From contig JAQUMH010000005.1 in the NCBI GenBank assembly GCA_028718185.1, positions 1-64,000 of the forward strand: DNA of 64,000 nt, read 5' to 3'. Positions within the stretch are counted from its first letter, which is position 1; each line of letters starts with the position of its first letter. Below the pieces are notes generated by a model, which had not been told where the DNA came from, did not search any database, and was given only the letters and a program-made list of their open reading frames with translations. This document shows, one piece after another, positions 4,506-26,707 of the stretch. The position numbers were made by a program, and so were the translations under genes. The stretch comes from Elusimicrobiota bacterium. GTDB taxonomy: Bacteria > Elusimicrobiota > UBA8919.

Positions 4506-7500
4506 ATGAAAACCGAAAAAAAACTATATTTTATACTATTTATACTCCTCTTGTTAGGTATGTGCTATCTATACAGCGAAGATGAGGGGTACATCATAAT
4601 CGAACCGGAACCAGATCCCATAATAACTCCAGTAGACGACACTCCACCAGTACCCGATACAACACCGCCAACAGGTTCAATAATTGTTAATAATGGAAAT
4701 CCTCTTTATGTCAATTCAATAAATGTTACACTCTGCTTAACTTACTCCGATGCCGGCTCCGGTGTTGATACGGTCAGGTATAGTAATGATAATTCTGTCT
4801 GGACCTCTTGGGAATCGCCTTCTGCTACTAAAATCTGGCAATTGGTATCAGGTGACAGTCTTAAAACTGTATATTACGAAGTAAAAGATAAAGCAGGGAA
4901 CGTAGCACAATTTAACGATACAATAACAATTGACGCTACTTTACCTACAGGTTCAATTACTATAAATAATAATAATCCTGATAATACTGATTCGGTAAAT
5001 GTTACTCTTTACCTGACATATTCAGATAACGGTTCCGGTATTGATATGGTCAGGTACAGTAATGATAATTCTATCTGGACATCATGGGAATCAGCTTCTG
5101 CTGTTAAAAACTGGCAATTGGTATCTGGCGACGGTGTTAAAACTGTATATTACGAAGTAAAGGATAACGCAGGTAATGTAACTCAATTTACTGATACTAT
5201 TATTCTTAAAACATTTATACCGGATACTACCCCGCCGATTGCTTCTATTTTAATAAATAATAACGCAGCTTATACAAATTCTATACCTGTAACTATAACA
5301 ATTTCTGCTTCTGACCCTGAATCAGGTATTACAGGTATGAAAATATGGAATACTGGAAATACAGAACCAGCCGCTTGGGAACCTTATGCTATATCTAAAA
5401 ATTGGAACTTGACATCAGAAGACGGAATAAAAACTATCAATGTAAAATTTAAGAACGGCCAAGGATTGGAAACGTTAGCAAATGATACTATCAGTCTTGA
5501 TACTTCTTTGCCAGCGGGCTCAATTGTAATTAATAGTGGAAATCCTGAATATACAAACTCTATTAATGTTACGCTTTGTTTGACATATTCTGATAACAGC
5601 TCCGGAGTCGATATGGTCAGATATGGCAATAGCGGAGATTTTTGGACTCCATGGGAGTTACCTTCCGCTACAAAAAGCTGGCAATTAGCATCAGGTGAAG
5701 GTGTTAAAACTGTATACTACCAGGTAAAAGATAAAGCAGGAAATATAACTCAATTGACTGATACTATTATTTTCAAAGCACCGGATACTACACCGCCGAT
5801 TGCTTCTGTTTTAATAAATAATAACGCTGATTATACAAATACTCTATCAGTAACGCTAACAATTTCTGCTGCTGACCCCGAAACCGGTATTACCGGTATG
5901 AAAATATGGAATACCGGAAATACAGAACCAGCCACTTGGGAACCTTATGCTACATCTAAAAATTGGAGCTTGACATCAGAAAATGGAATAAAAACTGTCA
6001 ATGTAAAACTTAAGAACGGCCAAGAACTGGAAACATTAGCAAATGATACTATCACTCTTGACACTATTTTACCGGCAGGTTCAATAGCTATAAATAATAA
6101 TAACCCTGATAACACTGATTCAGTAAATGTTACTCTTTACCTTACATACTCGGATAACGGTTCCGGTGTTGATATGGTGAGATATGGCAATAGCGGGGAT
6201 GTCTGGACTTCCTGGGAGTTACCTTCTGCTACTAAAATCTGGCAGTTAACATCAGGTGAAGGTGTTAAAACTGTATACTACCATATAAAAGATAAAGCAG
6301 GAAATGTAACCCAACTTACTGATACAATCACGTTTAAAGTACCGGATACTACACCTCCGATTGCTTCTGTTTTAATAAATAATAACGCAGCTTATACAAA
6401 TACAATATCAATAATATTGACACTTTCCGCAGTTGATAATGAATCAGGTATTACAGGTATGAAAATATGGAATACCGGAAATACAGAACCAGCCACTTGG
6501 GAACCTTATGCTATATCTAAAAATTGGAACTTAACATCAGAAGACGGAATAAAAACTGTCAATGTAAAATTTAAGAATGGCCAAGAACTGGAAACGTTAG
6601 TAAATGATACTATCAGTCTTGACACTATTTTACCTGCAGGTTCAATAGTAATTAATAGTGGAAATCCTGAATATACAAACTCAATAGACGTTACACTTTA
6701 CCTGACAAACTCGGACAGCGGTTCAGGTGTTGATATGGTCCGATATGGCAATGATAGCGATGTATGGACTCCTTGGGAATTACCTTCTGCTACTAAAATC
6801 TGGAAACTAACATCAGATAACGACATTAAAACAGTATATTATGAAATCAAAGATAAAGCAGGAAATGTAACTCAATTCAGTGATACTATCTCTCTTGATA
6901 CAACACCGCCATCAGGGTCAATTGTAATTAATAATAGCAATCCTGAATACACTAATTCAATAGATGTTACACTATGTTTAACTTATTCAGATACTGACTC
7001 TGATATTGATACAGTTAGATATAGTAATGATAATTCTATCTGGACATCATGGGAATCGCCTTTTGCTACTAAAAATTGGAAACTGGTAACAGGCGATGGC
7101 GTTAAAACTGTATATTATGAAGTAAAAGATAAGGCAGGTAACGTTGCACAATTTACTGACACAATTAGTCTCGATACTTCTTTACCGGCAGGGTCAATAG
7201 TTATCAACAATAGCAATCCCGAGTATACTGATTCAGTTGATGTTACTCTTTCCCTGACATATTCTGATAACGGCTCCGGTGTTGATATGGTCCGATATGG
7301 CAATGATGGAGATGTATGGACTGTTTGGGAATTAGCTTCTGCGACTAAAATTTGGAAATTAACATCAGGTGACGGATTGAAAACTGTATACTACGAAGTA
7401 AAAGATAAATCCGGAAATATAGCACAATTTAGTGACACTATTACTCTTGAAACAATAATAGCGGCAACAATAGACATTAATCCAAACACCTTAAATCTTA

Positions 7501-9269
7501 AAAGTAAAGGTAACTGGATAACAGCATATATAGAATTACCGATAAGATATAATGTACAAAACATTAACATCTCTTCCTTACTGTTGAATGATAAAATTTC
7601 CGCAGAACAAAAATCAACATCTACCGGTGATCACGATTCCGATGGAATACCTGATCTAATGGTCAAGTTTTCAAGAGAGGAAGCGCAAAAGATACTTTGT
7701 ACCGGTGAAGATGTTACCCTGACACTTACAGGTTCGCTTGTTGACGGGAAAAAACTTATTGCAAGTGATACTATAAGAGTAATTGAACCCGGTAAGGGCC
7801 CAAAAGAATCAGAAGAATCTAAAAAAACCGTAGAAGTAACTGAACCGGAAAAAATTGAAAACCCGGTAGAAGTAAAAAACCACAAGAAACTAAAAGAATT
7901 TGAGAAGCCTAAAGAACCCAAAGGATTTGAAGAACCTAAAAAAATCGTTGACATAACCGAACCGGAAAAATCTAAGGCTTCTGAAGAACCTAAAGTATCC
8001 GAAAAACCTGTGGAACCTAAAGAACCTAAAGGATTTGAAGAACCTAAAAAAATCATTAACGTATTTGAACCCGAACTACCTAAAATTGTTGAAGAAAAAG
8101 TATCTGAAAAACCTGTTGAACCAAAAGAACTTGAAGAACCTAAAAAAATCGTGGAAGTATCCATACCTGAGAAAGATAAGAACGAACCGGAAAAACCTAA
8201 TGTATCTGAAAAACCAGCAGAATACAAAGTAATTGAAGAACCTAAAAAAATCGTTAACATAACTGAACCGGAAAAACCTAACACACCTGTTGTTTCAGAA
8301 AAAAGCGTAACTGTTACTTTAAAAGAAAAAGAAATTCATTTTGTTTTAGCACAAAAATTACCGGAAACATCCAATATATTAGAAGCAGTTCTCTGGCTTG
8401 GACTTAAAGATAAGAAAGAAACCCCGGAGGTTTACTATCACAATTCATTCCAGAATAAATATGTATTTCATAATAAGTATATGCTAAAACCCGGAATGGG
8501 ATGGGATATTACAGGTGGCGTAACAGAAGATAGAAATCAAAATAAAGAAATATCGATTTTGGTAAAATTTAATGAAGATATAATATCAGATTATGTGTTA
8601 GTAGTTGTGTATGGAAAAGAATCTTCTAAAGAAAAAATAGTAGTATTTAGCGGCGGGAATATAGTCCTTCCTGCCGGCTTAAACAGCGAAATAACAATGA
8701 AAGAAAATGCTGAAGCAAAACCTATACCCCAGAACCTTAAACCTATTTCCAGAACTTTCGAACCGAGTGAAAAAATTGAACTTACTAAAGAGGCCGTAAT
8801 AACCTTATCCTATAACGATGTTGTTTTAAATGATACGAATGAAAAAGATTTGAAAATCTTTTATTATGATGAAAAAGAATCTAAATGGCAACCGCTTGCT
8901 AACTGCGAAGTAAATGTTAGCCAGAAAAACATCAGCGCTAAAACGACAAAATTGTCAACATTTCAAATCATGGCACCTGTTATAATAAAAACTTTAGCAC
9001 CTCTTAAATCGCAACTGGGTCAAAACTATCCGAACCCATTTAATCCAGCGACAACAATAAACTATTCCATAGAACGTGATTGTCATGTATCATTAAAGCT
9101 CTACAATGTTGTCGGGGAACTTGTTGCAACAATAGTAGATGAATTTAAAACTGCCGGAAAATATTCGGTTTACTATGACGGCGGAGCACAGCTGTCCAGG
9201 GGAATTTACTACTACCAGATAATAGCAGGAAGTTTCGTTAACACCAAAAAAATGGTCGTGTTGAAGTAG
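4506..9269 (+). CDS. Giant repeat adhesin with C-terminal type IX-type sorting domain
   Basis: A 1,587-residue secreted surface protein. In order: a signal peptide (about residues 1-24) with a long Leu/Ile core; an acidic Pro-rich linker; ten Ig-like beta-sandwich repeats of about 90 residues (about 53-980); a domain with D-S-D-G-I-P-D-L and VTLTLTGSL of a kind seen in other large surface proteins (about 985-1095); a Glu/Lys/Pro-rich stalk (about 1095-1275); a beta-rich domain (about 1280-1490); and a final domain with QNYPNPFNP and YNVVGELV, the FlgD-like / Por sorting fold read by type IX secretion systems. Expected role: attachment to surfaces or cells after export and anchoring on the outer membrane. 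It stands alone behind its own promoter and riboswitch, with a PorV-like gene 230 bases downstream. Ligand unknown. Confidence 0.82.
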   Translation: MKTEKKLYFILFILLLLGMCYLYSEDEGYIIIEPEPDPIITPVDDTPPVPDTTPPTGSIIVNNGNPLYVNSINVTLCLTYSDAGSGVDTVRYSNDNSVWTSWESPSATKIWQLVSGDSLKTVYYEVKDKAGNVAQFNDTITIDATLPTGSITINNNNPDNTDSVNVTLYLTYSDNGSGIDMVRYSNDNSIWTSWESASAVKNWQLVSGDGVKTVYYEVKDNAGNVTQFTDTIILKTFIPDTTPPIASILINNNAAYTNSIPVTITISASDPESGITGMKIWNTGNTEPAAWEPYAISKNWNLTSEDGIKTINVKFKNGQGLETLANDTISLDTSLPAGSIVINSGNPEYTNSINVTLCLTYSDNSSGVDMVRYGNSGDFWTPWELPSATKSWQLASGEGVKTVYYQVKDKAGNITQLTDTIIFKAPDTTPPIASVLINNNADYTNTLSVTLTISAADPETGITGMKIWNTGNTEPATWEPYATSKNWSLTSENGIKTVNVKLKNGQELETLANDTITLDTILPAGSIAINNNNPDNTDSVNVTLYLTYSDNGSGVDMVRYGNSGDVWTSWELPSATKIWQLTSGEGVKTVYYHIKDKAGNVTQLTDTITFKVPDTTPPIASVLINNNAAYTNTISIILTLSAVDNESGITGMKIWNTGNTEPATWEPYAISKNWNLTSEDGIKTVNVKFKNGQELETLVNDTISLDTILPAGSIVINSGNPEYTNSIDVTLYLTNSDSGSGVDMVRYGNDSDVWTPWELPSATKIWKLTSDNDIKTVYYEIKDKAGNVTQFSDTISLDTTPPSGSIVINNSNPEYTNSIDVTLCLTYSDTDSDIDTVRYSNDNSIWTSWESPFATKNWKLVTGDGVKTVYYEVKDKAGNVAQFTDTISLDTSLPAGSIVINNSNPEYTDSVDVTLSLTYSDNGSGVDMVRYGNDGDVWTVWELASATKIWKLTSGDGLKTVYYEVKDKSGNIAQFSDTITLETIIAATIDINPNTLNLKSKGNWITAYIELPIRYNVQNINISSLLLNDKISAEQKSTSTGDHDSDGIPDLMVKFSREEAQKILCTGEDVTLTLTGSLVDGKKLIASDTIRVIEPGKGPKESEESKKTVEVTEPEKIENPVEVKNHKKLKEFEKPKEPKGFEEPKKIVDITEPEKSKASEEPKVSEKPVEPKEPKGFEEPKKIINVFEPELPKIVEEKVSEKPVEPKELEEPKKIVEVSIPEKDKNEPEKPNVSEKPAEYKVIEEPKKIVNITEPEKPNTPVVSEKSVTVTLKEKEIHFVLAQKLPETSNILEAVLWLGLKDKKETPEVYYHNSFQNKYVFHNKYMLKPGMGWDITGGVTEDRNQNKEISILVKFNEDIISDYVLVVVYGKESSKEKIVVFSGGNIVLPAGLNSEITMKENAEAKPIPQNLKPISRTFEPSEKIELTKEAVITLSYNDVVLNDTNEKDLKIFYYDEKESKWQPLANCEVNVSQKNISAKTTKLSTFQIMAPVIIKTLAPLKSQLGQNYPNPFNPATTINYSIERDCHVSLKLYNVVGELVATIVDEFKTAGKYSVYYDGGAQLSRGIYYYQIIAGSFVNTKKMVVLK
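4662..7455 (+). repeat. Ten in-frame Ig-like repeats of two types, order A-A-B-A-B-A-B-A-A-A
   Basis: Each unit is about 270-290 bases. Type A opens with G-S-I-x-I-N-N and carries a VDMVRY core, WTSWE and VKTVYYEVKDKAGN. Type B opens with A-S-I/V-L-I-N-N-N and carries ITGMKIWNTGNTEP, then WEPYA and IKTVNVK. Seven A and three B units alternate in the middle. DNA identity between B units is high over long stretches, including third codon positions, which suggests recent duplication or gene conversion and makes this stretch prone to copy-number change and assembly error. Confidence 0.88.
7795..8300 (+). repeat. Degenerate Glu/Lys/Pro-rich repeats within the adhesin stalk
   Basis: Units built on E-E-P-K-K-I-V-x-x-T-E-P-E-K and S-E-K-P-V-E-P-K recur five or six times. 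Such charged Pro-rich tracts usually form extended, wall- or capsule-spanning stalks. The bias in base composition leaves a long open frame on the opposite strand, which is a shadow and not a gene. Confidence 0.75.
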
Positions 9270-9495: not shown

Positions 9496-10509
9496 ATGAA
9501 ATTAAAAAAACAAAAAATAAATAACTTGCATTCTAATTATTATATATTTCGTTCTTTCCTTATTTCTGATTTCTTGCTTCTTGCTTCTTGCTTCTTATTT
9601 CTTGCTTCCTGTTCCTCCCTTTATGCAGTTAATACGGGGGCTGATTTTCTTAAGCTTGGGATTGGAGCGAGACCATCGGCGTTAGGAGAATGTGGGGCTG
9701 CTTTATCTTCTGATGTAACAGCAATTTACTGGAATCCTGCCGGTCTGGCTAAAATAGAAAAAATGGAATTGGTAGCTGCTCACAGCCAGACGGTTATGGA
9801 CGCTACTTTCGGGTTTTTAGGTTTTGCATACCCGAATAAAAAATTTGGGAATTTTGGAGTTGGTAGTACACTCTTTATTCCTGAATCTGTTCCCATAACA
9901 ACAACAAGCGAGGAGACGGAAGGACAATTAAGATGGCTGGATGTGGCTTTTACATTATCATACGGAAGAGATATTATAAATAACCTTTCAGCAGGAATAG
10001 GATTTAAAATAATTCACCGGAAAGAAAGCAGCCCTATATTTGATACGAAAGGAACCGCGTATGCAGGTGATTTCGGTTTTATATATCAACTGAACCCGGA
10101 TTTTATTGCTGAAAAAGATGAAAAATTAAATTTGGGGTTTTCAATGTCAAACTTGGGAAACAAAATACAAATGAGCGGTGAAACAAAAAAAGATAACCTC
10201 CCGCAAACAACAAGACTTGGTTTTGCATACGAGTTCCACCCGAACAATGAAAATGCTATAATTGTTTTGAGTGAAGTTAACAAAATATTGGATGAAAAAT
10301 TAGGATTTGGGTTTGGTACGGAATACAAACTTAGAGAACCGGTTTTTATAAGGTTTGGATATCTTACTAAAGAAGGGAATATAAAAGGTATAACATACGG
10401 GTTTGGAATTAATGTAAAAGGATTCCAGTTGGATTATAGTAACGTACCGGTTAGTGAGCTTGTAGGATGGACACGGGACAATAGGATTTCGTTAATTGTT
10501 AGGTTTTAG
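9496..10509 (+). CDS. PorV/PorQ-family outer-membrane beta-barrel protein
   Basis: A 337-residue protein of the PorV/PorQ (UPF0164) family, FadL-like barrels. A basic start and Leu/Ser/Cys-rich signal peptide (to about residue 50) lead into the family signature: GADFLKLGIGARPSALG, then SDVTAIYWNPAGLA, where N-P-A-G is the hallmark. The rest shows alternating strands and ends in an aromatic residue (IVRF), as outer-membrane barrels do. PorV shuttles type IX cargo to the surface attachment machinery; its place just after a cargo-like adhesin makes that role plausible, though other family members have different roles. No strong ribosome binding site precedes the ATG. The signal peptide is encoded by a tandem CTTGCTT-type repeat. 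Confidence 0.82.
   Translation: MKLKKQKINNLHSNYYIFRSFLISDFLLLASCFLFLASCSSLYAVNTGADFLKLGIGARPSALGECGAALSSDVTAIYWNPAGLAKIEKMELVAAHSQTVMDATFGFLGFAYPNKKFGNFGVGSTLFIPESVPITTTSEETEGQLRWLDVAFTLSYGRDIINNLSAGIGFKIIHRKESSPIFDTKGTAYAGDFGFIYQLNPDFIAEKDEKLNLGFSMSNLGNKIQMSGETKKDNLPQTTRLGFAYEFHPNNENAIIVLSEVNKILDEKLGFGFGTEYKLREPVFIRFGYLTKEGNIKGITYGFGINVKGFQLDYSNVPVSELVGWTRDNRISLIVRF
9564..9612 (+). repeat. Tandem TTCTTGC repeat encoding a signal peptide
   Basis: TTGCTTC recurs about four or five times with small changes (TTGCTTCTTGCTTCTTGCTT and onwards). Translated it gives the hydrophobic LLLASCFLFLASC core of the signal peptide. The same phenomenon is seen at 15963-15994 with a different repeat. Confidence 0.65.
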
Positions 10510-14141: not shown

Positions 14142-16049
14142 TTATTTTTTCAATTCTTTTTTTGCTCTTTCCAGGTTTTTGGCGGCAGATTCATGTCCGG
14201 GATTTAATTTTAGCGCGTCTTCCCAGAATTTAATCGCCTCTTTCAGGTTTCCTTGATTGTATTCTATCAAACCTTTGTTATTGTATTCGTCCGCCAAAAC
14301 TTTATTTTTTTCAAATTCTTCATTAACTTTTTCTTGGCATTTCTTTATATAATCCAGAGCTTCCTTATAATCCGGCACACATTCCAATGATTTATTCAAA
14401 ACAGTTATCGCTTCTTTATAAAAACCGTTTTCAAAAAGTTTCTGCCCTTCTTTTAAATACATATTAGCAACCTTTTCTTTTGTCTTGGTTAAATAGTCAT
14501 CTACTTTCAAAGTTCCATCCGATTTTTGAGATATTTCAGTAAACAATCCCAGTGCTTTTTTATAATTACCTTTATTATAAAATTCCAACGCCTTTTCATA
14601 AAGAATCTTATACCGTTCATCGAGTTTCCTTCTTTCCCTCTTTTCAATATCTATTTTCGCTTTAACAATATATTCTTTACTTGACGCATGTTCCGGGTCA
14701 AGCAATATAACTTTTTCCCAGATACTTATTGCATCTTCAAATTCGTCTCTATTATAAAATTCAAGCCCCTGGTTAAACAATATCTCTAATCTTTGTTTTT
14801 TTTCTTTAAGAAGCCCTTCCTGAACTTCAGCCAGATATTTTTTTGCCTGAACATTTTCTTTATCCACCAATAAGACACTTGTAAACTCTTGTTCTGCTTT
14901 TAAAAAATCGTTCTTTTCAAGATATTTCTTTCCGGAAACCAGGTGTTTTTCAATATTTGCTTCACTTATATGAACCGTGATTTTATCCAGATAATCTTTG
15001 GCTTCCTGATTGGTCGGGTCATAAACCAAAACATTTTTAAATTCTTCCTGCGCTTCTATCAAGTCCTTCTTTTCAAAATATCTTTTCCCTTTTTTCAGAT
15101 ATTTTTCAATTTTCTCATTTATTACATCAAGCTCGTGACTTTTTCCAAAATAAATATTCATACCGAAATGATGAGTATCGCCAAGAAGCCCGTAAGGGGC
15201 AAAAGCATAGTCAAAAGATATTTTTTCGTTCCCTACCCCGAACCCGAAACGGATTCCGTTTATATCCCTGAATTTATACCCGACCCTTAACATAAGCAAA
15301 TCAAGAAACTGGTATTCAGTACCTACATTAAAATAACCAACCCTGTCTTTTGGAATATTATAGTCCACGTCAAATGTTAAATCATCGTTAAGAAATTTAG
15401 AACTGGCACCTAACTTAATATTGAGCGGTAATGGGTCTTCTGTGACTGAATTCCCTATGTTCTGTACTGCAACCGCTAAATTAACAGGTGCCGGTTTTTC
15501 TGCTTTAAAAAGCAATCCAACATCACCGGCTAAACATATAGTTTCGTCATCATCCAGTTTTTCCTGAATTACTTTGATGTTTGCACCGGCGGATAGTTTT
15601 TGATATAAGATATTTGAGTATGAAACAATAAAAGCCCGGTCAAACGTACTTATTTTATCAGTAGGAACACCCCCGGCATTATATCCCTCAATTTTACCAA
15701 AAGATAAATTATATAAACTCCCTGCGAAAGTACCGATATTAAGCGGCAGCACAAAAGATACCGTCTGGTAATCGATATCCTGGAACCATTTAAGATATTC
15801 TGCACTTACCCCTTTATATTTTACCTGTGAAAGCCCTGCGGGATTCCAATAAATTGCGTTCATATCGTCTGCAACAGCAGTAAACGCTTCACCCATACCG
15901 GCGCCACGAACACCTGTTGCAATTTTAAGAAAATTAAACGCAGTCGTTCCGGGCTCCCCGTATAGGAAGTAGGAAGTAGGAAGTAGGAAGTAGATAACAA
16001 ACAACAAACAAAGGATATTATGATTATAATATGTTTTTTTCAATTTCAT
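14142..16049 (-). CDS. PorV/PorQ-like barrel fused to a TPR domain
   Basis: About 635 residues, roughly twice the length of a PorV-family protein. After a signal peptide (to about residue 32) comes a barrel (about 35-320) with the hallmarks TGVRGAGMGEAF and MNAIYWNPAGLS. The C-terminal half (about 325-635) is a run of TPR motifs such as KKGKRYFEKKDLIEAQEEF, YNRDEFEDAISIWEKV and YNQGNLKEAIKFWEDAL. The TPR part would be periplasmic if the barrel is in the outer membrane, and could dock periplasmic or secretion components. The start was put at the ATG at 16049; a GTG at 16064 is in frame. A tandem TACTTCC repeat encodes part of the signal peptide. Downstream lie the two kinase genes, upstream the second sorting-domain protein. 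Confidence 0.8.
   Translation of the reverse strand: MKLKKTYYNHNILCLLFVIYFLLPTSYFLYGEPGTTAFNFLKIATGVRGAGMGEAFTAVADDMNAIYWNPAGLSQVKYKGVSAEYLKWFQDIDYQTVSFVLPLNIGTFAGSLYNLSFGKIEGYNAGGVPTDKISTFDRAFIVSYSNILYQKLSAGANIKVIQEKLDDDETICLAGDVGLLFKAEKPAPVNLAVAVQNIGNSVTEDPLPLNIKLGASSKFLNDDLTFDVDYNIPKDRVGYFNVGTEYQFLDLLMLRVGYKFRDINGIRFGFGVGNEKISFDYAFAPYGLLGDTHHFGMNIYFGKSHELDVINEKIEKYLKKGKRYFEKKDLIEAQEEFKNVLVYDPTNQEAKDYLDKITVHISEANIEKHLVSGKKYLEKNDFLKAEQEFTSVLLVDKENVQAKKYLAEVQEGLLKEKKQRLEILFNQGLEFYNRDEFEDAISIWEKVILLDPEHASSKEYIVKAKIDIEKRERRKLDERYKILYEKALEFYNKGNYKKALGLFTEISQKSDGTLKVDDYLTKTKEKVANMYLKEGQKLFENGFYKEAITVLNKSLECVPDYKEALDYIKKCQEKVNEEFEKNKVLADEYNNKGLIEYNQGNLKEAIKFWEDALKLNPGHESAAKNLERAKKELKK
15963..15994. 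repeat. Tandem TAGGAAG repeat encoding a signal peptide
   Basis: Four copies of TAGGAAG, read on the minus strand as TACTTCC units, encode FLLPTSYFL in the signal peptide of the PorV-TPR gene. Because seven is not a multiple of three, successive copies are read in different frames, yet all give hydrophobic residues. Confidence 0.65.
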
Positions 16050-16071
16050 GTTATCAATATTCACAAAACAG

Positions 16072-16153: not shown

Positions 16154-18820
16154 TTATTTTATCACTACTATTTTCCCGAACTTCTTTTCTCTTTCGTTTT
16201 TTATGTGATAAATGTATACACCACTCGCTAAAACATTGCCATCGTCAGTCCGGACATCCCACCTTTCAAGCGGGTTGCCGTCAGTGTGTTCAATTTGTTT
16301 GACTAATTCCCCGCTTATCGTGAAAATTTTTATTGTCGCATAAGACGATATATTCGTGAATGTTATCGCGGTATCCGTACCCACCCTGAACGGGACCGGA
16401 TATGCATAAGCATTAGAAAGGTCGGTTGTATTTGTTCCCATCAATGCGAAAGTAGAGAAATGCGGGACATTTGCTGTAACTTTATTATTGGCTGCATCTA
16501 CAATATAATCCGGTAATTTTACCCAAAGATTATCATTTTCATTTAAATAATAAATTGCAAGCATATTCTCTCTTACCGGGAAAGACATGCCGGTTACAAT
16601 TCCATTTGTTTCAGTGTAAGGAATAGTAACTGTTACATCTGAAGAAAAATTATTAGTCACAAAATTACCGGAAACGTTATAGGCAGTAAATTCACGCACT
16701 GTTCCTTGTATAAAAGAATAAAATGGGTCATTAAAACTTGGGAGTTTAGCATTTGCCCGTTCAACCAGCGAAATCTTAGTTGTCGCCGTACTTCCTATAA
16801 CATATACTTTTTCAGGAAACGCTCCCGGTGAAATAGTCACGCTGAATAATTCAGGATTTACCGGGTCTTTAACAATATTTGAAGCTCTATTATCCAAAAT
16901 AGTACTGAACGTCCAGGTTTTTGAGTCACTCAATCTCTTGCCATATATGTCATATGCGGTGGTTGTTATAGTAACTTCATAAATATAATTATTCTTTAAA
17001 AGACTTGATGTAAAGGATAACTTCTTCTCACTACTTACATATTCTGCCGTCCCTGTAACTGCTAAATCAACATCGCTACTTTCACTGTTTCTTATTGCTT
17101 TTACAGATATAGCGCCTTCTGTAGTTGTTTTTTCCATATCCTCACTGAAATGGACATATATTGATTTGATTATATCTACTCCCAACGCTTTATCAGAAGG
17201 GAAAACTGATACTATTGCAGGTAAACTTCTAAAAGTACTAAAAGTCCATGTCTTCGAATCACTTAATCGCTTGCCATACACGTCATAAGCAATGGTTGAT
17301 ATAGTAACTTCATAAGTATAATTACTTTTTAAAAGGTTTGACGTAAAAGATAACTTTTTATCACTACTTGTATACTCAACAGTTCCTGCTACCGCTGTAT
17401 CAACTACTATACCCTCATTGTTTCTTATTGCTTTTACGGATATAGCACCTTCTGTAGTTATCTCTTCCATATCATCACTAAAATACACATATATTGATGT
17501 GCTTACATTGACATCAGACGCGTTATCAGGTGGAAAAAATGAAACTATCACAGGTGAACTTGTAAAAGTACTGAATGTCCATGTCATTGAACTTTGCAAA
17601 TAGTTACCGTATATATCATTTGCGATGGTTGATATGGCAACTTCATAAGTATAATTATTCTTTAAAAGATTTGAGGTGAAAGACAGCTTCTTATCGCTAC
17701 TTGTATACTCCGCGATTCCTGCTACCCCTGTATCTACTACAATACCCTCATTGTTTCTTATTGCTTTTACAGATATTGCTCCCTCTGTAGTTGTTTTTTC
17801 CATATTTTCACTAAAATATACATAGATTGACGTGCTTATATGGACATTAGACGCGTTATCAGGCGGAGAAAATGTAACTATTGAAGGTACTGCCGCAACA
17901 TTTAAATTTCCAGATAGTGAATTATTAGTTTCATCTGACTCACTTACTAAATTGGGATAATCCACAACAGAATAAATATTATGACTACCGGCTGTTGCTG
18001 TCCAAGTGGTTGAGACAACAACTGATTCTTCACTAAGCAGCGGTTTTTCAAATACATTTGAACTTATAAATATTCCTCCACCAGTTGGATTTCCATCATA
18101 AAAACTAACAATAGTTTGAGTGCATTGATATAATTTATAGTAAATCTCATTGATTCCTGAAACGCTTGTAGTTGAAGCCCAACTAAGCCCCATATCTATA
18201 CTTCCTCCTACCTTATCTATTGCCACACCGCTTTTTAGTCCTATTCCATATGATACTGTAGAAGTACTTTCTATGCATAACCAGTACGTCGTCGAGGCAC
18301 TTAAATATGGAGGCGAATCAAAAACAAATTCCTGCCAATGCTGATATGTCGTAGGATTGTTCAAAGGATTGGAAGTACCTACTACAGGGACTAATGCACC
18401 ACTGGGTACTAAAGCACCAAAATATACATTGTTTTGACGTATTGTCACATTTATATAATTTGTTGTTATACCAGTAAGATTTCTAATTATGATTTCTGCT
18501 TTTCCTAAATACATGTTATATGGTAAAACAAAACAATTTGCATACCATACAGAAGAAGATAACGCTGTCGTGCCGCTTGAGGTCCATGCCTGATAAGAAG
18601 ATGTCGCCGGTGTGAGAACTACCTGGTTGGAATAATTCTGGTCAATATTTCTAACCGTGGCGGAAATTGTGAGTACCTGATTATTTGAAGGTGTGTTATC
18701 ATTGAAAGTTATATCGGATATTGTTAAATCCGGCAGAGCATGTAAATTGCAGGTAAAAAAGCAAAAGAATAGTATGAAAACCGGAACATTAAAGATACTA
18801 ATTATAATTTTTCTTTTCAT
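16154..18820 (-). CDS. Secreted CARDB / Ig-like protein with type IX-type sorting domain
   Basis: About 888 residues. A signal peptide is followed by PDLTISDITF, the start of a CARDB domain. That domain breaks off near residue 66 and resumes near 239 with IVSFYDGNPTGGG, ending in VSESDETNNSLSG; about 170 residues of another domain (with YLGKAEIIIRNLTG and TTYWLCIES, reminiscent of jelly-roll surface domains) sit between. Then come three Big_5/SbsA-like Ig repeats, each with PPDNASNV or similar and VYFSENMEKTTTEGA (about 315-640), a linker domain, and a C-terminal FlgD-like sorting domain with YPVPFRVG and FTISGELVKQI. It should be exported and anchored or released by type IX secretion. The ATG at 18820 was preferred to a GTG at 18832. 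Function beyond surface protein is unknown. Confidence 0.8.
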   Translation of the reverse strand: MKRKIIISIFNVPVFILFFCFFTCNLHALPDLTISDITFNDNTPSNNQVLTISATVRNIDQNYSNQVVLTPATSSYQAWTSSGTTALSSSVWYANCFVLPYNMYLGKAEIIIRNLTGITTNYINVTIRQNNVYFGALVPSGALVPVVGTSNPLNNPTTYQHWQEFVFDSPPYLSASTTYWLCIESTSTVSYGIGLKSGVAIDKVGGSIDMGLSWASTTSVSGINEIYYKLYQCTQTIVSFYDGNPTGGGIFISSNVFEKPLLSEESVVVSTTWTATAGSHNIYSVVDYPNLVSESDETNNSLSGNLNVAAVPSIVTFSPPDNASNVHISTSIYVYFSENMEKTTTEGAISVKAIRNNEGIVVDTGVAGIAEYTSSDKKLSFTSNLLKNNYTYEVAISTIANDIYGNYLQSSMTWTFSTFTSSPVIVSFFPPDNASDVNVSTSIYVYFSDDMEEITTEGAISVKAIRNNEGIVVDTAVAGTVEYTSSDKKLSFTSNLLKSNYTYEVTISTIAYDVYGKRLSDSKTWTFSTFRSLPAIVSVFPSDKALGVDIIKSIYVHFSEDMEKTTTEGAISVKAIRNSESSDVDLAVTGTAEYVSSEKKLSFTSSLLKNNYIYEVTITTTAYDIYGKRLSDSKTWTFSTILDNRASNIVKDPVNPELFSVTISPGAFPEKVYVIGSTATTKISLVERANAKLPSFNDPFYSFIQGTVREFTAYNVSGNFVTNNFSSDVTVTIPYTETNGIVTGMSFPVRENMLAIYYLNENDNLWVKLPDYIVDAANNKVTANVPHFSTFALMGTNTTDLSNAYAYPVPFRVGTDTAITFTNISSYATIKIFTISGELVKQIEHTDGNPLERWDVRTDDGNVLASGVYIYHIKNEREKKFGKIVVIK

Positions 18821-18952
18821 TTCAATAATCACTTATTTACTAAATAAATATAAGCATACAATCTATTTTAGTCATTGTCAAGTCATTTTTCATTGTAAAA
18901 ATACACATTTATAACTAGAATCGTACAGAATTTATATATTTTGAATAGCAAG

Positions 18953-20908
18953 TTAATGTGTTACCGTTTGTTTTAAAAAATTTACTTTATTTTGAATATC
19001 TTTGTCATTTGGTGATAAACTCAAGGCAATTTCAAACCCTTGAAGTGCTTCATCATATCTTTTCAGACCACAATACGCAGTAGCAAGATTACAGTATGCT
19101 TCAAAATAATTTGGGTTTATTTTGAGTGCTTTTTGATATTCCTGAATTGCTTTATCATAGCTTTTCTGATTACAATACAAAACACCTAAATTGTTGTGTG
19201 CTTTTTCATCGTCTGGATTTAATTCTATAGCTTTTTGATATTCCTGAATCGCGCTATTGTAGTCTTTCAGAATACGATATAAAACCCCAAGATTATTATA
19301 TACCGTCGCTTCGTTTGGACTTATTTCTATAACTTTTTGATATTCCTGAATTGCTTTAGCATATTCTTTTATATCAAGATATAAATTACCAAGCTCAAAA
19401 TGTACTTTCGCATAATTTGGTTCTAGCTCGATGACTTTTTTGAAATGCTGTATTGCATTATTATAATCTTTCTGAATATAAAATAAAAAACCAAGGTTAT
19501 AATGTGCATCCTTATATTTTGGACTTAAACATATAGCCTTTTGGTATTCATTAAGTGCTTTTTCATATTCTTTTTGTTCACAATATGAAACACCAAGATT
19601 GTTATATGCTCTACTATGTGGATAATATGAAACAACATCTTGCCATAAAGGAATAGATTTTTGATAAAGTTGATTTCTTTTTACAGTTATTATACCAAGA
19701 ATAAGTATATTAATACATATTAAAATAATTGAAAAGTTAGGAAATTTTAAAGATTTAAAAAATGAAAGATAAGAAAATATAAGAATAAGATAAAAACCAA
19801 ATCCTGCAAGATATAGTCTATTATCAACCATGGTGCTGGTTGTAGGGAAAAAACTTGATGTTGGCGATAATGTTATAAAATACCAAAGTATAGAAAATAA
19901 GATTATTTTTGATGTATCAGATTTTCTTTTGTACAGTTGATATGCAAATATAAAGATACTTATGATAATGATAATTGATAATATTTCTTTTAACTCGTAT
20001 ATTGATTTTATTATCAAGAATTGGCCACGATCTATAGATAATCCAATAGGCACAAAAAGTAACCAGAGATATTTCACTATCACATATGGTTGATTTATTA
20101 AATATATAAGCCGCCCCGGAAGGTTTTCTGCTTCTAAATCACCTATACTGCCAAAATAAAAATATCTGAATAGTAAAAAACCAACAAACAATATCCAGTA
20201 TGGCACATGATAATATTTATTTTCGATAACTTTTTTTGCACTAAAATCACTTAAAATAATATAATCAAATAATAAGATTATTGCAGGTAAAGTAACAACA
20301 TCTTGTCTTGCAAATAATGCCAGAATAAAACTCAGCAGTGAAAGAATATAAAAAGTTTTATTCTTTTCAAATGTCTTAATAAAAAATAATATTGATAGTA
20401 AATAAAAAAAGGTGGCTAAAAGAACAGACCGACTGAACAAATATGTTACTGAATTTGTATTTACAGGATGAATTGCAAAAAGTAGAGATACAAATAGAGA
20501 GAAAATAAAAGAATGATAAATTGAAAGATTTAAAAGATTAGTATATGAAAGTATTTTTTTAGTTAAAAAGAATATTAGAATTACATTAAATATGTGTATT
20601 ATAAGGTTAAAAAGATGATAACCGAATGGATTTAATTTACCAATATAATAATTCAATGTAAATGTTAGATACACCAATGGTCTTGACGGGTCATTTCTTT
20701 CAAAAGTTTTATTAGCAGCTGAAGGATAAATAAGCTTAGTTGTAATGTTACTCAATTTTTTAATATCCGGGTTATCTACAATTTTCGATCTATCGTCCCA
20801 TAAAAATGGAACTTTAAAAGAGTTATAATAGACAACTATTGTAGCAATTACTATTACTCCAATAGCAAACCATTGTTTCCATTGGTTATTTTGAACGTTA
20901 TTTTTCAT
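18953..20908 (-). CDS. Polytopic GT-C-like glycosyltransferase with six TPR repeats (TMTC-like)
   Basis: About 651 residues. The first 420 or so hold some ten membrane helices; the first large loop contains VPFLWDDRSKI, whose acidic pair resembles the catalytic Asp motif of GT-C mannosyltransferases such as PMT and the animal TMTC proteins. The C-terminal 220 residues are six TPR units (each with a Y/H-N-N-L-G-V-type start and KAIQEYQKAI). This layout matches TMTC/DUF1736-type O-glycosyltransferases, which use lipid-linked sugar outside the cytoplasm; donor and target are unknown. The start was put at the ATG at 20908, which has GGAAAG upstream; an ATG at 20920 is in frame. It is part of a leftward run of three large membrane proteins. 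Confidence 0.72.
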   Translation of the reverse strand: MKNNVQNNQWKQWFAIGVIVIATIVVYYNSFKVPFLWDDRSKIVDNPDIKKLSNITTKLIYPSAANKTFERNDPSRPLVYLTFTLNYYIGKLNPFGYHLFNLIIHIFNVILIFFLTKKILSYTNLLNLSIYHSFIFSLFVSLLFAIHPVNTNSVTYLFSRSVLLATFFYLLSILFFIKTFEKNKTFYILSLLSFILALFARQDVVTLPAIILLFDYIILSDFSAKKVIENKYYHVPYWILFVGFLLFRYFYFGSIGDLEAENLPGRLIYLINQPYVIVKYLWLLFVPIGLSIDRGQFLIIKSIYELKEILSIIIIISIFIFAYQLYKRKSDTSKIILFSILWYFITLSPTSSFFPTTSTMVDNRLYLAGFGFYLILIFSYLSFFKSLKFPNFSIILICINILILGIITVKRNQLYQKSIPLWQDVVSYYPHSRAYNNLGVSYCEQKEYEKALNEYQKAICLSPKYKDAHYNLGFLFYIQKDYNNAIQHFKKVIELEPNYAKVHFELGNLYLDIKEYAKAIQEYQKVIEISPNEATVYNNLGVLYRILKDYNSAIQEYQKAIELNPDDEKAHNNLGVLYCNQKSYDKAIQEYQKALKINPNYFEAYCNLATAYCGLKRYDEALQGFEIALSLSPNDKDIQNKVNFLKQTVTH

Positions 20909-21011
20909 AAATCTTTCCATATTTTTATTTGGATTAAACTTTGCAATATATTATACTTTTACATTAAAACATTGAATTATCTCACATTTTCCAATAATTT
21001 TAATTTCCCAT

Positions 21012-22763
21012 TCATTTTTTAGATTTTTGTATAGCTAAATTATAATTTTTATTAAATTCTTTAATATTCGGTTCCATTTCAACTGCTTTCTTAAATAAAT
21101 TAACTGCATTTTCATATTTACCTAATTTATAGTAAATACTTCCCAAATTATTAAATGCTTCTGCATATTGAGGGTTAATCGCTATCTGTCTTTGCAATAT
21201 ATCAATTGCTTTTGAATACATCTTATTTTCTAAATAAATATATGCAAGATTTATATATGGATTACCACCTATAGGATTAATTTTAATAGCAATCTCATAT
21301 TCTTTGATACTTTTTTCATAATCACCTTTTTCTTCATATAAAACACCTAAATTAAAATGTGAAACACTTAATTGAGATTCTTTATATAAATTCATACCAA
21401 ATAAATCTTCATAAATATTTTTATTAACTCCCCAATAAAGCAAAATTAGCACAAGGATATATTTTACCAATTGCTTATACTGATTTTTTGTTATTATTAT
21501 ATATAAATGATATAGTGCACTACTTGCAAAAACTATTACTACCGGAGTTATAGGAAATCGATATTCAGAAACAACAAAAAAAAGCACAAGTGTCAGGACA
21601 TAGAAAATAATATAAAAAATAAATAATAAAATCCCGTAATCTATAGAATTATTTTTAATTAGAATTATTATACCCAAAAGTGCAAGAGGAAAAATTATTC
21701 CAAAAGAAAAAGGCAACATTCTCAATAACGTAAATTTTTCCCTAAAAAAATAATAATTTAAATTTATTTGTGTTTCATAAGAATTACAAAATATTAAAAA
21801 TTTGTTTAATATGCTTTTTAACCAACGATTTGGTTCATTCCTAATAAATTTAAAGCTTTCTGCATACCAAAATTTAGACGACTCTTTTGGTGTTAATTCC
21901 CTCCCTGCCCTCCTTTCTGACTCCCTAATAAAATCTTGTTGTTCATATTCTGTATTCATTCTACAAAATGGCACCGATAAGTACACCCCATTGATATAAG
22001 GATTATTGCCTGTATAAAAATTCATTCCACCATGTGCGGTTGATAATACAAACTCTCCTCCTATATGTTTATTCCTTAGAGCTACGGGAATTATTATCAA
22101 CGATACACCCAAAACAAGAGTTACAATAGAACCAACAATTTTCTTTTTATCAATCCCATCTTTTTTACTTACTATCCATACCCATATAATAAGCAATGGT
22201 ATTAATCCTAATATATTTGGCCGAAAATGTACGGAAAACCCTAGGAAAATACCAGAAAGGAAGAGAAATACATTTAATTTTTTATTCATCCAATTAATTA
22301 ACATCAAAAGCATGAGCAGGTTAAAAATATTTATTACTGTAGCTTTTACTAATAGACCTTCATAAAAAATACTAATACTATATAATAACATTATAAAGGC
22401 AGATAAAATACCAATCGTTAAATTAAAAACTTTCTTTCCTAAAAAATAAATAAATACACATATCAAACTGCCCATAATGAACTGTAGCATAATTGGTATA
22501 TCAATATTATAACCAAATATTAGATAGATAATACCTAATAAATATGGATAGCCTGGGCTCATAGTAAAAACCCCTCGGCTTTTGCCTAACCAATCACCTT
22601 TCGATATTTCTTGTGCCCAAATATCATAAAATTTAGCATCAAGAATTGAATTCTTAAATAAAATATTATCTTTTATTTGATAAAAATATATTAACCGAAT
22701 TATTAATGCAAATAAAAATATAATTGCAGGTAAAAACCACTTTTTTTCAATAAGTTTCTTCAT
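21012..22763 (-). CDS. PMT/ArnT-like (GT39-type) membrane glycosyltransferase with TPR tail
   Basis: A 583-residue protein. About ten to twelve membrane helices fill residues 10-440. The first extracytoplasmic loop has SILDAKFYDIWAQEIS followed by SPGYPYLLG, matching the D-x-x-Y and P-P-x-Y-P-type motifs of the PMT/ArnT family, in which the Asp is catalytic. Three TPR units (VSHFNLGVLYEEKGDYEKSI, then NLAYIYLENKMYSKAI and NLGSIYYKLGKYENAV) form the tail. It would transfer a sugar from an isoprenyl-phosphate donor to lipid or protein outside the inner membrane. It lies between a TMTC-like and a YfhO-like gene, all leftward with short gaps, so they may act together in cell-envelope glycosylation. 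Confidence 0.72.
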   Translation of the reverse strand: MKKLIEKKWFLPAIIFLFALIIRLIYFYQIKDNILFKNSILDAKFYDIWAQEISKGDWLGKSRGVFTMSPGYPYLLGIIYLIFGYNIDIPIMLQFIMGSLICVFIYFLGKKVFNLTIGILSAFIMLLYSISIFYEGLLVKATVINIFNLLMLLMLINWMNKKLNVFLFLSGIFLGFSVHFRPNILGLIPLLIIWVWIVSKKDGIDKKKIVGSIVTLVLGVSLIIIPVALRNKHIGGEFVLSTAHGGMNFYTGNNPYINGVYLSVPFCRMNTEYEQQDFIRESERRAGRELTPKESSKFWYAESFKFIRNEPNRWLKSILNKFLIFCNSYETQINLNYYFFREKFTLLRMLPFSFGIIFPLALLGIIILIKNNSIDYGILLFIFYIIFYVLTLVLFFVVSEYRFPITPVVIVFASSALYHLYIIITKNQYKQLVKYILVLILLYWGVNKNIYEDLFGMNLYKESQLSVSHFNLGVLYEEKGDYEKSIKEYEIAIKINPIGGNPYINLAYIYLENKMYSKAIDILQRQIAINPQYAEAFNNLGSIYYKLGKYENAVNLFKKAVEMEPNIKEFNKNYNLAIQKSKK

Positions 22764-22819
22764 ATATTTATTACATTAAATCCCATAACTCATTACAAAA
22801 CTAAGAACGTTCCCATTTT

Positions 22820-24973
22820 TTATATAACCTTGATAAATAACATGCCAAATATCAATAGAGCAGTAAAAATAGTTATATACATTCCAATTTTGAACGAAAT
22901 TGGTTTAAAAACAAATTCAACTATATGTTCCCCTTTGTTTAAAGCAATTGCTCTAAATAAATAATTCGCTCTTAATATCTTGCTTTCTTTTCCATCAACA
23001 TAACACTTCCACCCGGGATAATATGTATCACTTAAAACTAAAAATCCATCATCTGTAAGATTTGCATTTATTAATACATCGGTGTTTTCATATTTTTCTA
23101 TTTTCGCTACTGACCCTTTTGTAGAGATAGAACCATGATTTATGTTTTCTTCCAATATTACAGTTTTTAACGGGTCAAATTTATCAGATTGTAGAATTTC
23201 TAAAATTTTTGTATCGTCAGAAATAATCTCTGCTTTAGGTATAATATACGATTTTGGAGTAAATTGTTTGTTTTCATAAAAATAGAAATCACCTGCAATC
23301 TCAGGTTTTTCTTTTAAATAATTTGTATCTACTGAATATCCACTAATTATATATTTAACATTTTGTAGTCCTAAAAACCGCGCAGCAGAAAATGGTAAAA
23401 CTATTTTTTTATAACCTTCAAAATTACCAAATATAAGCGAATTAAAATATTTTTCATTAAATATATTTACTCGTTTCATTGAAAGCACAGTAGCTACCGA
23501 CACGGAAGATATATGGTATACCATGTTAAAATTAGGAATTATGAAATTTCTCATCCAAAAATAAGGATGCATTCCTGAAGAATATCCTTTAAATCGCTTA
23601 AACAATCTTTGTTGCACTTCTGTTGTGAAACTTTCTGTTCTAAACACATCTTTATCTGATTTTAAAAACTCAGCACTTTTAGGAACTGAAAACCACTTTC
23701 GGATATCATATGTTGGATTTTGTTTTATTCCAAATTTAAATAAATCAATTACTACAAATAAAATCAATATAATCAAATATCTGTGATATTTTTTCGGGAT
23801 TTTTTCAAGAACTATCTCTACACCGAATCCTGCAATAATACAAACCACTAAAGCATTTATGAATAAAATACGCTGATGAATCCTGAAATACTTAAAACCA
23901 GGAAGTATATTTTGGAATATATTTGTTAAATGAAATGCATTGTGTAATGCAATGGTAATAGAAACTATTATTAAAACTAAAAATAATTTTAACTGTAAAT
24001 TATCCTTAAACTTAAACATTAACGCAATTATCATAAATATTATTGGCAAAATCCCAACATAAAATATATTTTCCCAGAAAAGAACGCCTTCGTACGGGTA
24101 AGGACAAGTGCCGTCAACAATATTTCCATAATAAAATGGGAGAATAAATTGGATAATATGTTTAATTTTATATGGATAATTATTTGATAAGTCCCCTATT
24201 ATTTTTGAATCTGTAGCACGATAACTTTCTCGAACCAACTCATATGTTGGAACCAATTGTATCGCGGAAAGACCTATTCCAATCACCATAATGATACCTA
24301 TAGATAACAATATGGGGGTAATCCTCTTTTTCCTAAAAATACCAAATAAAAAGTAGATTAAAATCGCTATAAAAGAATAATATGGTATCTGTGGATGCCC
24401 TGCTAATATTTGAAATGAAAAAACTACTCCGGTTAAAATTATATAAATTATTTTATCCGTCTTAAAATACTTTTCTACTAAATAAAACAAAAGTGGTACC
24501 CAACATGCTGCTTGTATCATATTAAGATGTCTTACATGCAAAATAAAAAAGCCTGAAAACATAAATGATATCGCTGAAAAAAGCGAAGCAGTTTTACCTA
24601 AACCCAATAAGCGAACATAGAAATATGTAAATATTCCTACCAAATAAAATGTTAATATAACACTATAATTAAAAGCAATAGGTGAAGGTAAAATCCGGAA
24701 AAGTAATAGATTCAGAGGATAGCAAAACCCACCTTGTCCTTCTGCATGTATTGGATAGCCACACTGTATATCAGATGTCCATAAAAAAGATTTATTTTGT
24801 TTCAAACATTCAGACAGAAAATTCTTATATGGGTAATTGATACCCATTGTGTCATTTGAATATATATCAGGTGTTATGAATATTTCTTGTAAAGTGGCTG
24901 CTTTCCAAAAGAAAATGAATACTAAAATAAATAATAAAAAGGATACGAGAAAATATTCTTTTGTCTTATTCAT
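22820..24973 (-). CDS. YfhO-family membrane protein, putative glycosyltransferase
   Basis: A 717-residue polytopic protein of the YfhO family. Around twelve membrane helices are followed by a C-terminal extracytoplasmic domain, whose end (LVLSDTYYPGWKCYVDGK, then GEHIVEFVFKP) is the family signature, and a last helix. A TP-D-x-Y-S-type loop (ITPDIYSND) follows the first helix. YfhO proteins in Gram-positive bacteria are tied to glycosylation of teichoic or lipoteichoic acid; in a Gram-negative the role is open, but a sugar transfer at the outer face of the inner membrane is reasonable. It is the first of the three membrane genes in the transcription direction and lies 45 bases after a radical SAM gene. 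Confidence 0.8.
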   Translation of the reverse strand: MNKTKEYFLVSFLLFILVFIFFWKAATLQEIFITPDIYSNDTMGINYPYKNFLSECLKQNKSFLWTSDIQCGYPIHAEGQGGFCYPLNLLLFRILPSPIAFNYSVILTFYLVGIFTYFYVRLLGLGKTASLFSAISFMFSGFFILHVRHLNMIQAACWVPLLFYLVEKYFKTDKIIYIILTGVVFSFQILAGHPQIPYYSFIAILIYFLFGIFRKKRITPILLSIGIIMVIGIGLSAIQLVPTYELVRESYRATDSKIIGDLSNNYPYKIKHIIQFILPFYYGNIVDGTCPYPYEGVLFWENIFYVGILPIIFMIIALMFKFKDNLQLKLFLVLIIVSITIALHNAFHLTNIFQNILPGFKYFRIHQRILFINALVVCIIAGFGVEIVLEKIPKKYHRYLIILILFVVIDLFKFGIKQNPTYDIRKWFSVPKSAEFLKSDKDVFRTESFTTEVQQRLFKRFKGYSSGMHPYFWMRNFIIPNFNMVYHISSVSVATVLSMKRVNIFNEKYFNSLIFGNFEGYKKIVLPFSAARFLGLQNVKYIISGYSVDTNYLKEKPEIAGDFYFYENKQFTPKSYIIPKAEIISDDTKILEILQSDKFDPLKTVILEENINHGSISTKGSVAKIEKYENTDVLINANLTDDGFLVLSDTYYPGWKCYVDGKESKILRANYLFRAIALNKGEHIVEFVFKPISFKIGMYITIFTALLIFGMLFIKVI

Positions 24974-25987: not shown

Positions 25988-26707
25988 TCAAGCAGAAGAC
26001 TTTTTATTTTTATAAAAAATAATACTCCAAATAACTAAAATAATCAGAGCGATAAGAACTAAAATTATATTTTTTCCAAAACTTACTTTACCCCATAGTT
26101 TATCTTCATACATTTCAAAAAACAATGGGAAAAGTAAAATCAGCAATAATAAATTTGTCTCATTTTTTAATACTTTATTCCAATTAAACAATCTATTGGG
26201 TTTTCTGAAATTTTTTATCTTAGGGAAAAAAGCAGTGACTGATTTCCTATAATTATCATAAGCAACACCGAACTTAAGAAAAAGATAGGACTCTTCTGCT
26301 TTTATTATAAAATAATATTCAACAAAAAACCAAAGGACTATCGTAAAGAAAAAGTTTATTTCCCACCAGATAATCATAAATCCCAGCCATATCAGAAAAT
26401 TTGCAAAATATAACGGGTTCCTGCACATCAGGTAAGCACCGTCAGTAACAACTTCTGACACGGAAATTACCGTTCCCCTTCCGCTTGTTCCCGGTTTTTT
26501 ATACCCTATAACTAACACCCTTAAAGAAAAACCGACTAACGCCACCAAAACACCAAAAATATCCGTAATGTAATCCATTTTCATAGAATCGAATGGCATC
26601 ACGGGACCCATAAATATTACCAGCAATATCAAAATCGGGACAAACAAATAACTCCTGTACTTAAAAAACCAATTACCGATTGCAATTGTCAAATTATCAA
26701 TTTCCAT
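25988..26707 (-). CDS. Isoprenylcysteine carboxyl methyltransferase (ICMT)-family membrane protein
   Basis: A 239-residue membrane protein with about six helices. The family motif is clear: VVTDGAYLMCRNPLYFANFL, then AEESYLFLKFGVAYDNYRKSV and a FFPKI ending, as in the ICMT/PEMT phospholipid methyltransferase family that binds SAM at the membrane face. A C-terminal pair of helices extends beyond the core. In bacteria such proteins methylate lipids or unknown membrane substrates; protein prenylation is not expected. It is separated from pfkA by a 125-base gap filled by an inverted tandem repeat. Confidence 0.78.
   Translation of the reverse strand: MEIDNLTIAIGNWFFKYRSYLFVPILILLVIFMGPVMPFDSMKMDYITDIFGVLVALVGFSLRVLVIGYKKPGTSGRGTVISVSEVVTDGAYLMCRNPLYFANFLIWLGFMIIWWEINFFFTIVLWFFVEYYFIIKAEESYLFLKFGVAYDNYRKSVTAFFPKIKNFRKPNRLFNWNKVLKNETNLLLLILLFPLFFEMYEDKLWGKVSFGKNIILVLIALIILVIWSIIFYKNKKSSA

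Follow-up and report, generated by a model that had tools for sequence, protein, structure and literature searches.

Three membrane proteins of probable GT-C type, two with tetratricopeptide-repeat tails, as possible surface-protein glycosyltransferases in an Elusimicrobiota bacterium

What do three membrane-protein genes, set in a row in the genome of an Elusimicrobiota bacterium (assembly GCA_028718185.1), act upon? The genes lie on the minus strand of a 64,000-nt stretch of DNA (the window, to which all positions refer) that forms the start of contig JAQUMH010000005.1, our contig C5, in a genome of 3.03 Mb and 27 contigs. The three co-oriented open reading frames (ORFs) of a preliminary description of the window are all present, and in the order of transcription they encode a YfhO-like protein, a PMT_2/ArnT-like protein with tetratricopeptide repeats (TPRs) that we call PMTt, and a TMTC-like protein, with intergenic gaps of 56 and 91 bp (Table 1). 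Our reading, which as a whole we hold tentatively and place a little short of an even chance, is that these are three separate inner-membrane glycosyltransferases of the glycosyltransferase C (GT-C) type that face the periplasm and have surface proteins as acceptors, the trio being one shuffled array. Each enzyme would use a polyprenyl-phosphate-linked sugar as donor and pass it to an acceptor on the periplasmic face. We infer that the TPR arrays of PMTt and the TMTC-like protein would lie on the periplasmic side, where they could hold or present a polypeptide acceptor. The likeliest acceptors would be exported surface proteins, possibly the adhesin encoded beside the trio, and above all immunoglobulin (Ig)-like ones secreted by a type IX-like system.

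The enzymatic assignment is firmest for PMTt, which in our estimate is very probably a GT-C glycosyltransferase, judging by its predicted structure. Its match to the Pfam family PMT_2 scores 30.5 bits (cut-off 26.1), and the AlphaFold2 model, built from 48 sequences, has a mean predicted local distance difference test (pLDDT) score of 95.3 and a predicted template modelling (pTM) score of 0.92. Fold matches of this model included AglB, Stt3, PglB, ALG12, Pmt4, Pmt1-2, and ArnT (Z 19.5–26.1; 308–359 residues aligned), among them AglB (3waj; Z 26.1, root-mean-square deviation (rmsd) 5.3, 331 residues), Pmt4 (9i5l; Z 24.4, rmsd 3.9, 341 residues), ArnT (5f15; Z 24.2, rmsd 3.7, 315 residues), and Pmt1-Pmt2 (6p25_B; Z 23.6, rmsd 4.3, 359 residues). 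Asp42, Glu330, and Arg402 each occur in all 48 aligned rows, the window protein included. Asp42 belongs to the first outer loop and sits near the start of model helix 41-54, which comes after helix 10-30; this invariant residue and the predicted GT-C fold bear out the PMT/ArnT-like label of the preliminary description. The likeness to ArnT and Pmt4 extends over the whole core and includes the PMT_2 family, but PMTt shares only 10–13% identity with them in structural alignments. The substrate of ArnT is lipid A, and the PMTs have MIR domains instead of TPRs. The best match of the PMTt-core profile to a solved structure by sequence was TMEM260 (9rql), an O-mannosyltransferase of IPT domains (GT117) that has TPRs, but this match (E 0.014; profile positions 69-203) covers one part of the core.

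TPR tails, described earlier for two of the three proteins, were recovered in both. The TPR_1 matches cannot be put down to chance, with E 1.7e-55 for the TMTC-like protein (six stretches) and 9.4e-23 for PMTt (two stretches in Pfam, three by a home-made profile), and the tails are folded in both predicted models. The accompanying statement that TPR-fused GT-C enzymes are best known from eukaryotes holds for function but not for distribution, given that, by sequence, TPR-tailed relatives of PMTt are spread over many bacterial phyla. Within the best 80 loci of 116 stretches encoding such relatives, they were found in Elusimicrobia, Eisenbacteria, Latescibacterota, Deltaproteobacteria, Nitrospinota, Planctomycetota, Acidobacteria, and others. 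Among the open-licence papers listed, none had a title dealing with TPR-tailed GT-C enzymes of bacteria in the O-glycosylation of proteins, and the searches made brought up no report of acceptors for this bacterial class.

The likeness of the third protein to TMTC holds in part. As in TMTC1-4 (GT105), there is a membrane core whose first outer loop carries a DD motif, and behind it a C-terminal TPR array; Arg-Pro, the Asp of DW, and the Tyr of ERxxY stand at equivalent places. When compared with the TMTC motifs M1-M7 given in passages of PMC7801869, the DD motif (M1) is present as Asp42-Asp43, and it recurs in 18 of 19 aligned TMTC-like cores, the 19th being masked at that place. M2 is shortened to PSRP, M3 (RxD) reads RSV, M4 (KE(T/Q)xxT) reads RQDVVT, M5 (DW) is Asp297-Arg298 with the Asp retained and the Trp absent, and M7 (ERxxY) reads DNRLY. 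The match to TMTC_DUF1736 was below threshold (16 bits; cut-off 27), and this domain was found in 4/19 TMTC-like relatives at E up to 0.1. Since four motifs (M3, M4, M5, and M7) and the Pfam cut-off fail, we rejected an identity with TMTC (GT105) and use the name TMTC-like. The known enzymes also differ in being eukaryotic O-mannosyltransferases for cadherin domains, whereas the window protein is bacterial. A paralogue on contig C9 of the same genome (L032; G, C, and L numbers are our handles for genomes, contigs, and loci) retains KETAIT and AERYLY and has lost RxD. Prokaryotic TMTC homologues are already mentioned in passages of PMC7801869, and it is possible that the window protein could still work like TMTC.

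Structural comparisons of the TMTC-like protein gave a mixed picture. A simple and crude hydropathy scan found 9 hydrophobic segments, compared with 11 helices in TMTC. With the predicted model (pLDDT 84.3), both lists of fold matches were filled by TPRs, so that the lack of a listed GT-C structure is not evidence against the fold. The core profile, when compared by sequence with solved structures, matched no GT-C enzyme and only two TPR proteins at chance level. Against the PMTt cores it gave a partial match (probability 71%; 122 columns), and against YfhO another (probability 61%).

The YfhO-like protein is a clear member of its Pfam family (PF09586; 69.9 bits, cut-off 28.5, E 2.1e-19), in agreement with its earlier label, and has 11 hydrophobic segments by the simple hydropathy scan and a first-loop Asp41 that is kept in 11/12 aligned rows. 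Its profile matched no solved structure by sequence and showed no relation to that of PMTt (probability 3%). YfhO proteins have been proposed as GT-C enzymes (in passages of PMC5836110), and PgfM2, a YfhO relative, is needed for modifying the adhesin Cnm in Streptococcus mutans (PMC5856776). The C-terminal stretch of the window protein resembles PgfM2 (NF047590), but weakly, at 27 bits and far under the equivalog cut-off of 1500. Unlike the setting of Bacillus YfhO, no CsbB-like gene was found among the window proteins scanned, a subset of the window ORFs. As candidate GT-C glycosyltransferases, the YfhO-like and TMTC-like proteins are less likely than PMTt.

If the three proteins are GT-C enzymes, could surface proteins be their acceptors? 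Arguing by analogy, we consider the chance near even. In human cells, TMTC1-4 (GT105) and TMEM260 (GT117) target Ig-like folds of surface proteins (in passages of PMC11292533). Protein acceptors are plausible because of this analogy, that with PgfM2, and the three Ig-like stretches of the neighbouring adhesin (PF13205 Big_5; E 1.9e-37). The adhesin also has CARDB, one hydrophobic N-terminal segment, and a C-terminal sorting domain of the type IX secretion system (T9SS; TIGR04183, 28.6 bits, cut-off 23), hereafter a T9SS tail. A linking sugar is known to be attached to the C terminus of T9SS cargo (PMC7468200). The next gene encodes a PorV-like protein (NF033709, 176.7 bits, cut-off 90) with TPR_2. 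On sequence evidence, the genome does contain parts of a type IX-like system: an SprA_N match (C12:22170-22541 (+); 34 bits vs. a cut-off of 27; positions 368-491 of 510) inside a 1,733-aa frame, at least 23 PorV-family matches (23/53 candidates scored), and 55 T9SS tails in 3.03 Mb, or about one per 55 kb. SprA-like matches were present in 21 of the 79 Elusimicrobiota genomes searched (own genome included throughout), 19 of them over the cut-off. Among the open-licence papers listed, PMC8857248 and PMC8026616 mention type IX secretion together with Elusimicrobia or Elusimicrobiota, the latter with a single occurrence of each term.

Association of PMTt with T9SS cargo was observed in two comparisons. 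Across the 80 loci, T9SS tails occupied 15/138 positions directly next to PMTt as opposed to 13/564 positions two to eight genes off (p 5e-5; the count includes nine loci whose PMTt frame is absent or poor, with a best score <200). With one homologous family (nine loci, from Eisenbacteria and other bacteria) counted once, the values were 9/132 and 10/561 (Fisher p = 0.004). Nine loci of Eisenbacteria and other bacteria (L183, L184, L185, L189, L190, L195, L204, L208, and L213) have PMTt and then, after 182-478 bp, a T9SS-tailed protein of ~940 aa; the one scanned, from L195, carries an InhA-like MAM domain. Within the Elusimicrobiota, strong PMTt relatives (E below 1e-50) amounted to 10 copies in 7/79 genomes, and 5/10 of these copies had a T9SS tail within 5 kb (1.3 expected, P = 0.005), or 4/9 when the pair in G040 is counted once (P = 0.017). 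This second comparison is not fully even, since genome tail densities were taken by TIGR04183 and local tails also by a home-made profile (by the latter alone at G001:C51), and since one flank of the G011 locus ends at the contig end. For the YfhO family, the gene for a 2,647-aa T9SS-tailed protein comes 373 bp after that of a relative in G005 (55% identity).

A more direct connection may be seen elsewhere in the bacterium's own genome, where a 2,500-aa frame free of stops and Ns (C1:679205-686704 (-), locus L251) runs from a TMTC-like core (5-426) and weak TPRs (430-558) through kelch repeats and Big_1 to a T9SS tail (2410-2497; TIGR04183, 35 bits). As predicted, this frame would place a GT-C-type core and a cargo protein on a single polypeptide. 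The junction region was found in 0/40 other genomes, and among the TMTC-like matches in the other Elusimicrobiota genomes the longest frame is 796 aa; as a single case, it may have arisen by chance or through misassembly. Separately, a second unusual fusion of cargo with an enzyme-like domain was noted in a T9SS-tailed BNR-repeat protein of G001:C51 (L132:9857-12571, the same gene as L175:13326-16040), whose N-terminal peptidase-S24-like stretch scores 22 bits, just under the cut-off of 23.3.

Several observations weigh against surface proteins as acceptors, and our reading needs to be interpreted with caution. The association tests above were picked after the data were seen. With a T9SS tail every ~55 kb, nearness alone means little, and a link through the position of the own-genome TMTC-like genes was tried and is not significant (2/6 loci within 5 kb of a T9SS tail, 1.2 expected, P = 0.33). 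In G002, the counterpart of the G005 protein likewise comes 373 bp after a YfhO relative but has no T9SS tail by the home-made profile. In G036:C18 and G076:C19, the PMTt relatives (45% and 51% identity) have a ketoacyl-synthase gene on one side and an aminotransferase gene on the other, both of fatty-acid/biotin type. A short-chain dehydrogenase is encoded upstream in each, and G036 also has an AAA_26 gene that is presumably BioD-type; no cargo tail was found in these two loci. The PMTt of G011 is near CcmF and spermine-synthase-type genes. Strong matches to the whole trio stood side by side in 0/78 other Elusimicrobiota genomes searched. The adhesin gene itself may have its own promoter, at the promoter-like site between it and the trio (Table 1); such sites are not commoner in the region than chance would give (67 vs. 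a shuffle mean of 69.1). In the literature, the abundant T9SS cargo of P. gingivalis is biased against O-glycosylation (PMC8729774), and YfhO proteins are also needed for the glycosylation of lipoteichoic (LTA) or wall teichoic acid (WTA) (in passages of PMC5836110). The link to surface proteins suggested in the preliminary description is thus favored by the enrichment of T9SS tails at PMTt, the L251 fusion, and the G005 locus, but opposed by G036, G076, the TMTC-like loci, and P. gingivalis; O-glycosylation of the adhesin in particular would follow only by extension. Apart from this question, two distant Elusimicrobiota (L151:4939-10295 and L153:1261-6290) share a gene row in which PMTt stands with a short-chain dehydrogenase, a ketoacyl synthase, and an aminotransferase.

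The alternative that survives best, although we regard it as doubtful, is that the enzymes add sugars to glycolipids or polysaccharides of the envelope (lipid A, O-antigen-like, or other polymers) and not to proteins, with the TPRs binding partners in the envelope machinery. This would be consistent with ArnT being among the best fold matches of PMTt, with the need for YfhO homologues in LTA or WTA glycosylation, and with the PMTt relatives that stand apart from cargo genes in several genomes. It would also suit a gene two genes upstream of the YfhO-like gene (25988-26707 (-)), whose product resembles LmtA, the Leptospira lipid A phosphate methyltransferase, below the cut-off (101 vs. 325 bits). 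However, no other polysaccharide-synthesis enzyme was found beside the trio among the proteins scanned with Pfam (20 of some 50 in the window, the trio included), and in humans the TPR-tailed GT-C enzymes have proteins as their substrates (in passages of PMC11292533).

The preliminary description proposed conservation of the trio as a check and named scattered homologues among the results that would speak against its reading, and scatter is largely what we found, because the trio is not side by side in the other genomes searched. A conserved operon was therefore rejected, and a dedicated, conserved trio is not supported. YfhO-like proteins were matched in 29/79 genomes and TMTC-like ones in 37/79, and the own genome alone holds 17 PMT_2 matches (14 over the cut-off), 5 YfhO-like genes, and 6 TMTC-like loci. 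A YfhO-TMTC pair recurs in G001:C35 (where the TMTC-like gene is cut at the contig end), G004:C17, and G004:C20. In G004:C115, a TMTC-like gene comes after the end part of a YfhO-like frame. Several of the copies in G004 are disrupted or truncated. Other combinations of GT-C genes run together in G002:C42, G004:C60, and G040:C5. Since the families are multicopy and other combinations recur, we see the trio as one of many shuffled arrays.

It is unlikely, in our view, that chance alone has lined up three shuffling GT-C genes whose substrates are unrelated, and that their nearness to the adhesin reflects only how common surface-protein genes are: the multicopy, shuffled families, the number of T9SS tails, the own-genome paralogues adjoining what we take from their translations to be uvrA-like, carAB-like, and tyrS-like genes, and the low guanine-plus-cytosine (GC) content of the trio (25-29% vs. 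35-37% in the three neighbouring genes measured) would fit such a run, but the recurring YfhO-TMTC pair in G001 and G004, the enrichment of T9SS tails directly beside PMTt, and the fusion frame argue against it. The low GC content was not taken as a mark of foreign origin, since TMTC-like paralogues elsewhere (L027, L029, and L030) are also low, at 27-30% compared with ~35% for their loci.

The features of the locus are given in Table 1. The preliminary description had placed the surface-protein genes upstream of the trio; their coordinates are lower, yet transcription of the minus strand puts them downstream, the adhesin gene 120 bp after the trio and the PorV-like gene another 89 bp on. A second pair in the window comprises a gene for a T9SS-tailed protein of 1,587 aa (4506-9269 (+)) and one for a PorV-like protein (9496-10509 (+)).

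Table 1 Features of the trio and the adjoining surface-protein genes in the window.
Feature	Position	Strand	Details
YfhO-family GT-C-like membrane protein	22820..24973	-	717 aa; PF09586 over cut-off
PMTt: PMT_2/ArnT-like GT-C core with about three C-terminal TPRs	21012..22763	-	583 aa
TMTC-like protein: GT-C-type core with six C-terminal TPRs	18953..20920	-	655 aa
Promoter-like site between the trio and the adhesin gene, TTGACA-17-TATGCT	18853..18881	-	consensus scan
Surface protein (adhesin), candidate acceptor: CARDB, Big_5, T9SS tail	16154..18832	-	892 aa
PorV/PorQ-family outer-membrane protein with C-terminal TPRs	14142..16064	-	640 aa

A bolder extension of our reading is that bacteria using type IX secretion possess TPR-tailed GT-C enzymes that specifically serve Ig-like surface proteins, like TMTC1-4 and TMEM260 and sometimes fused to the cargo, with the eukaryotic enzymes as offshoots; we consider this quite improbable at present. 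If Ig-like proteins were indeed the acceptors, the use of TPR-tailed GT-C enzymes to O-glycosylate folded domains would be an ancient trait of bacteria and not an innovation of animals. If they were not, the TPR-tailed GT-C proteins would still represent a broad bacterial class.

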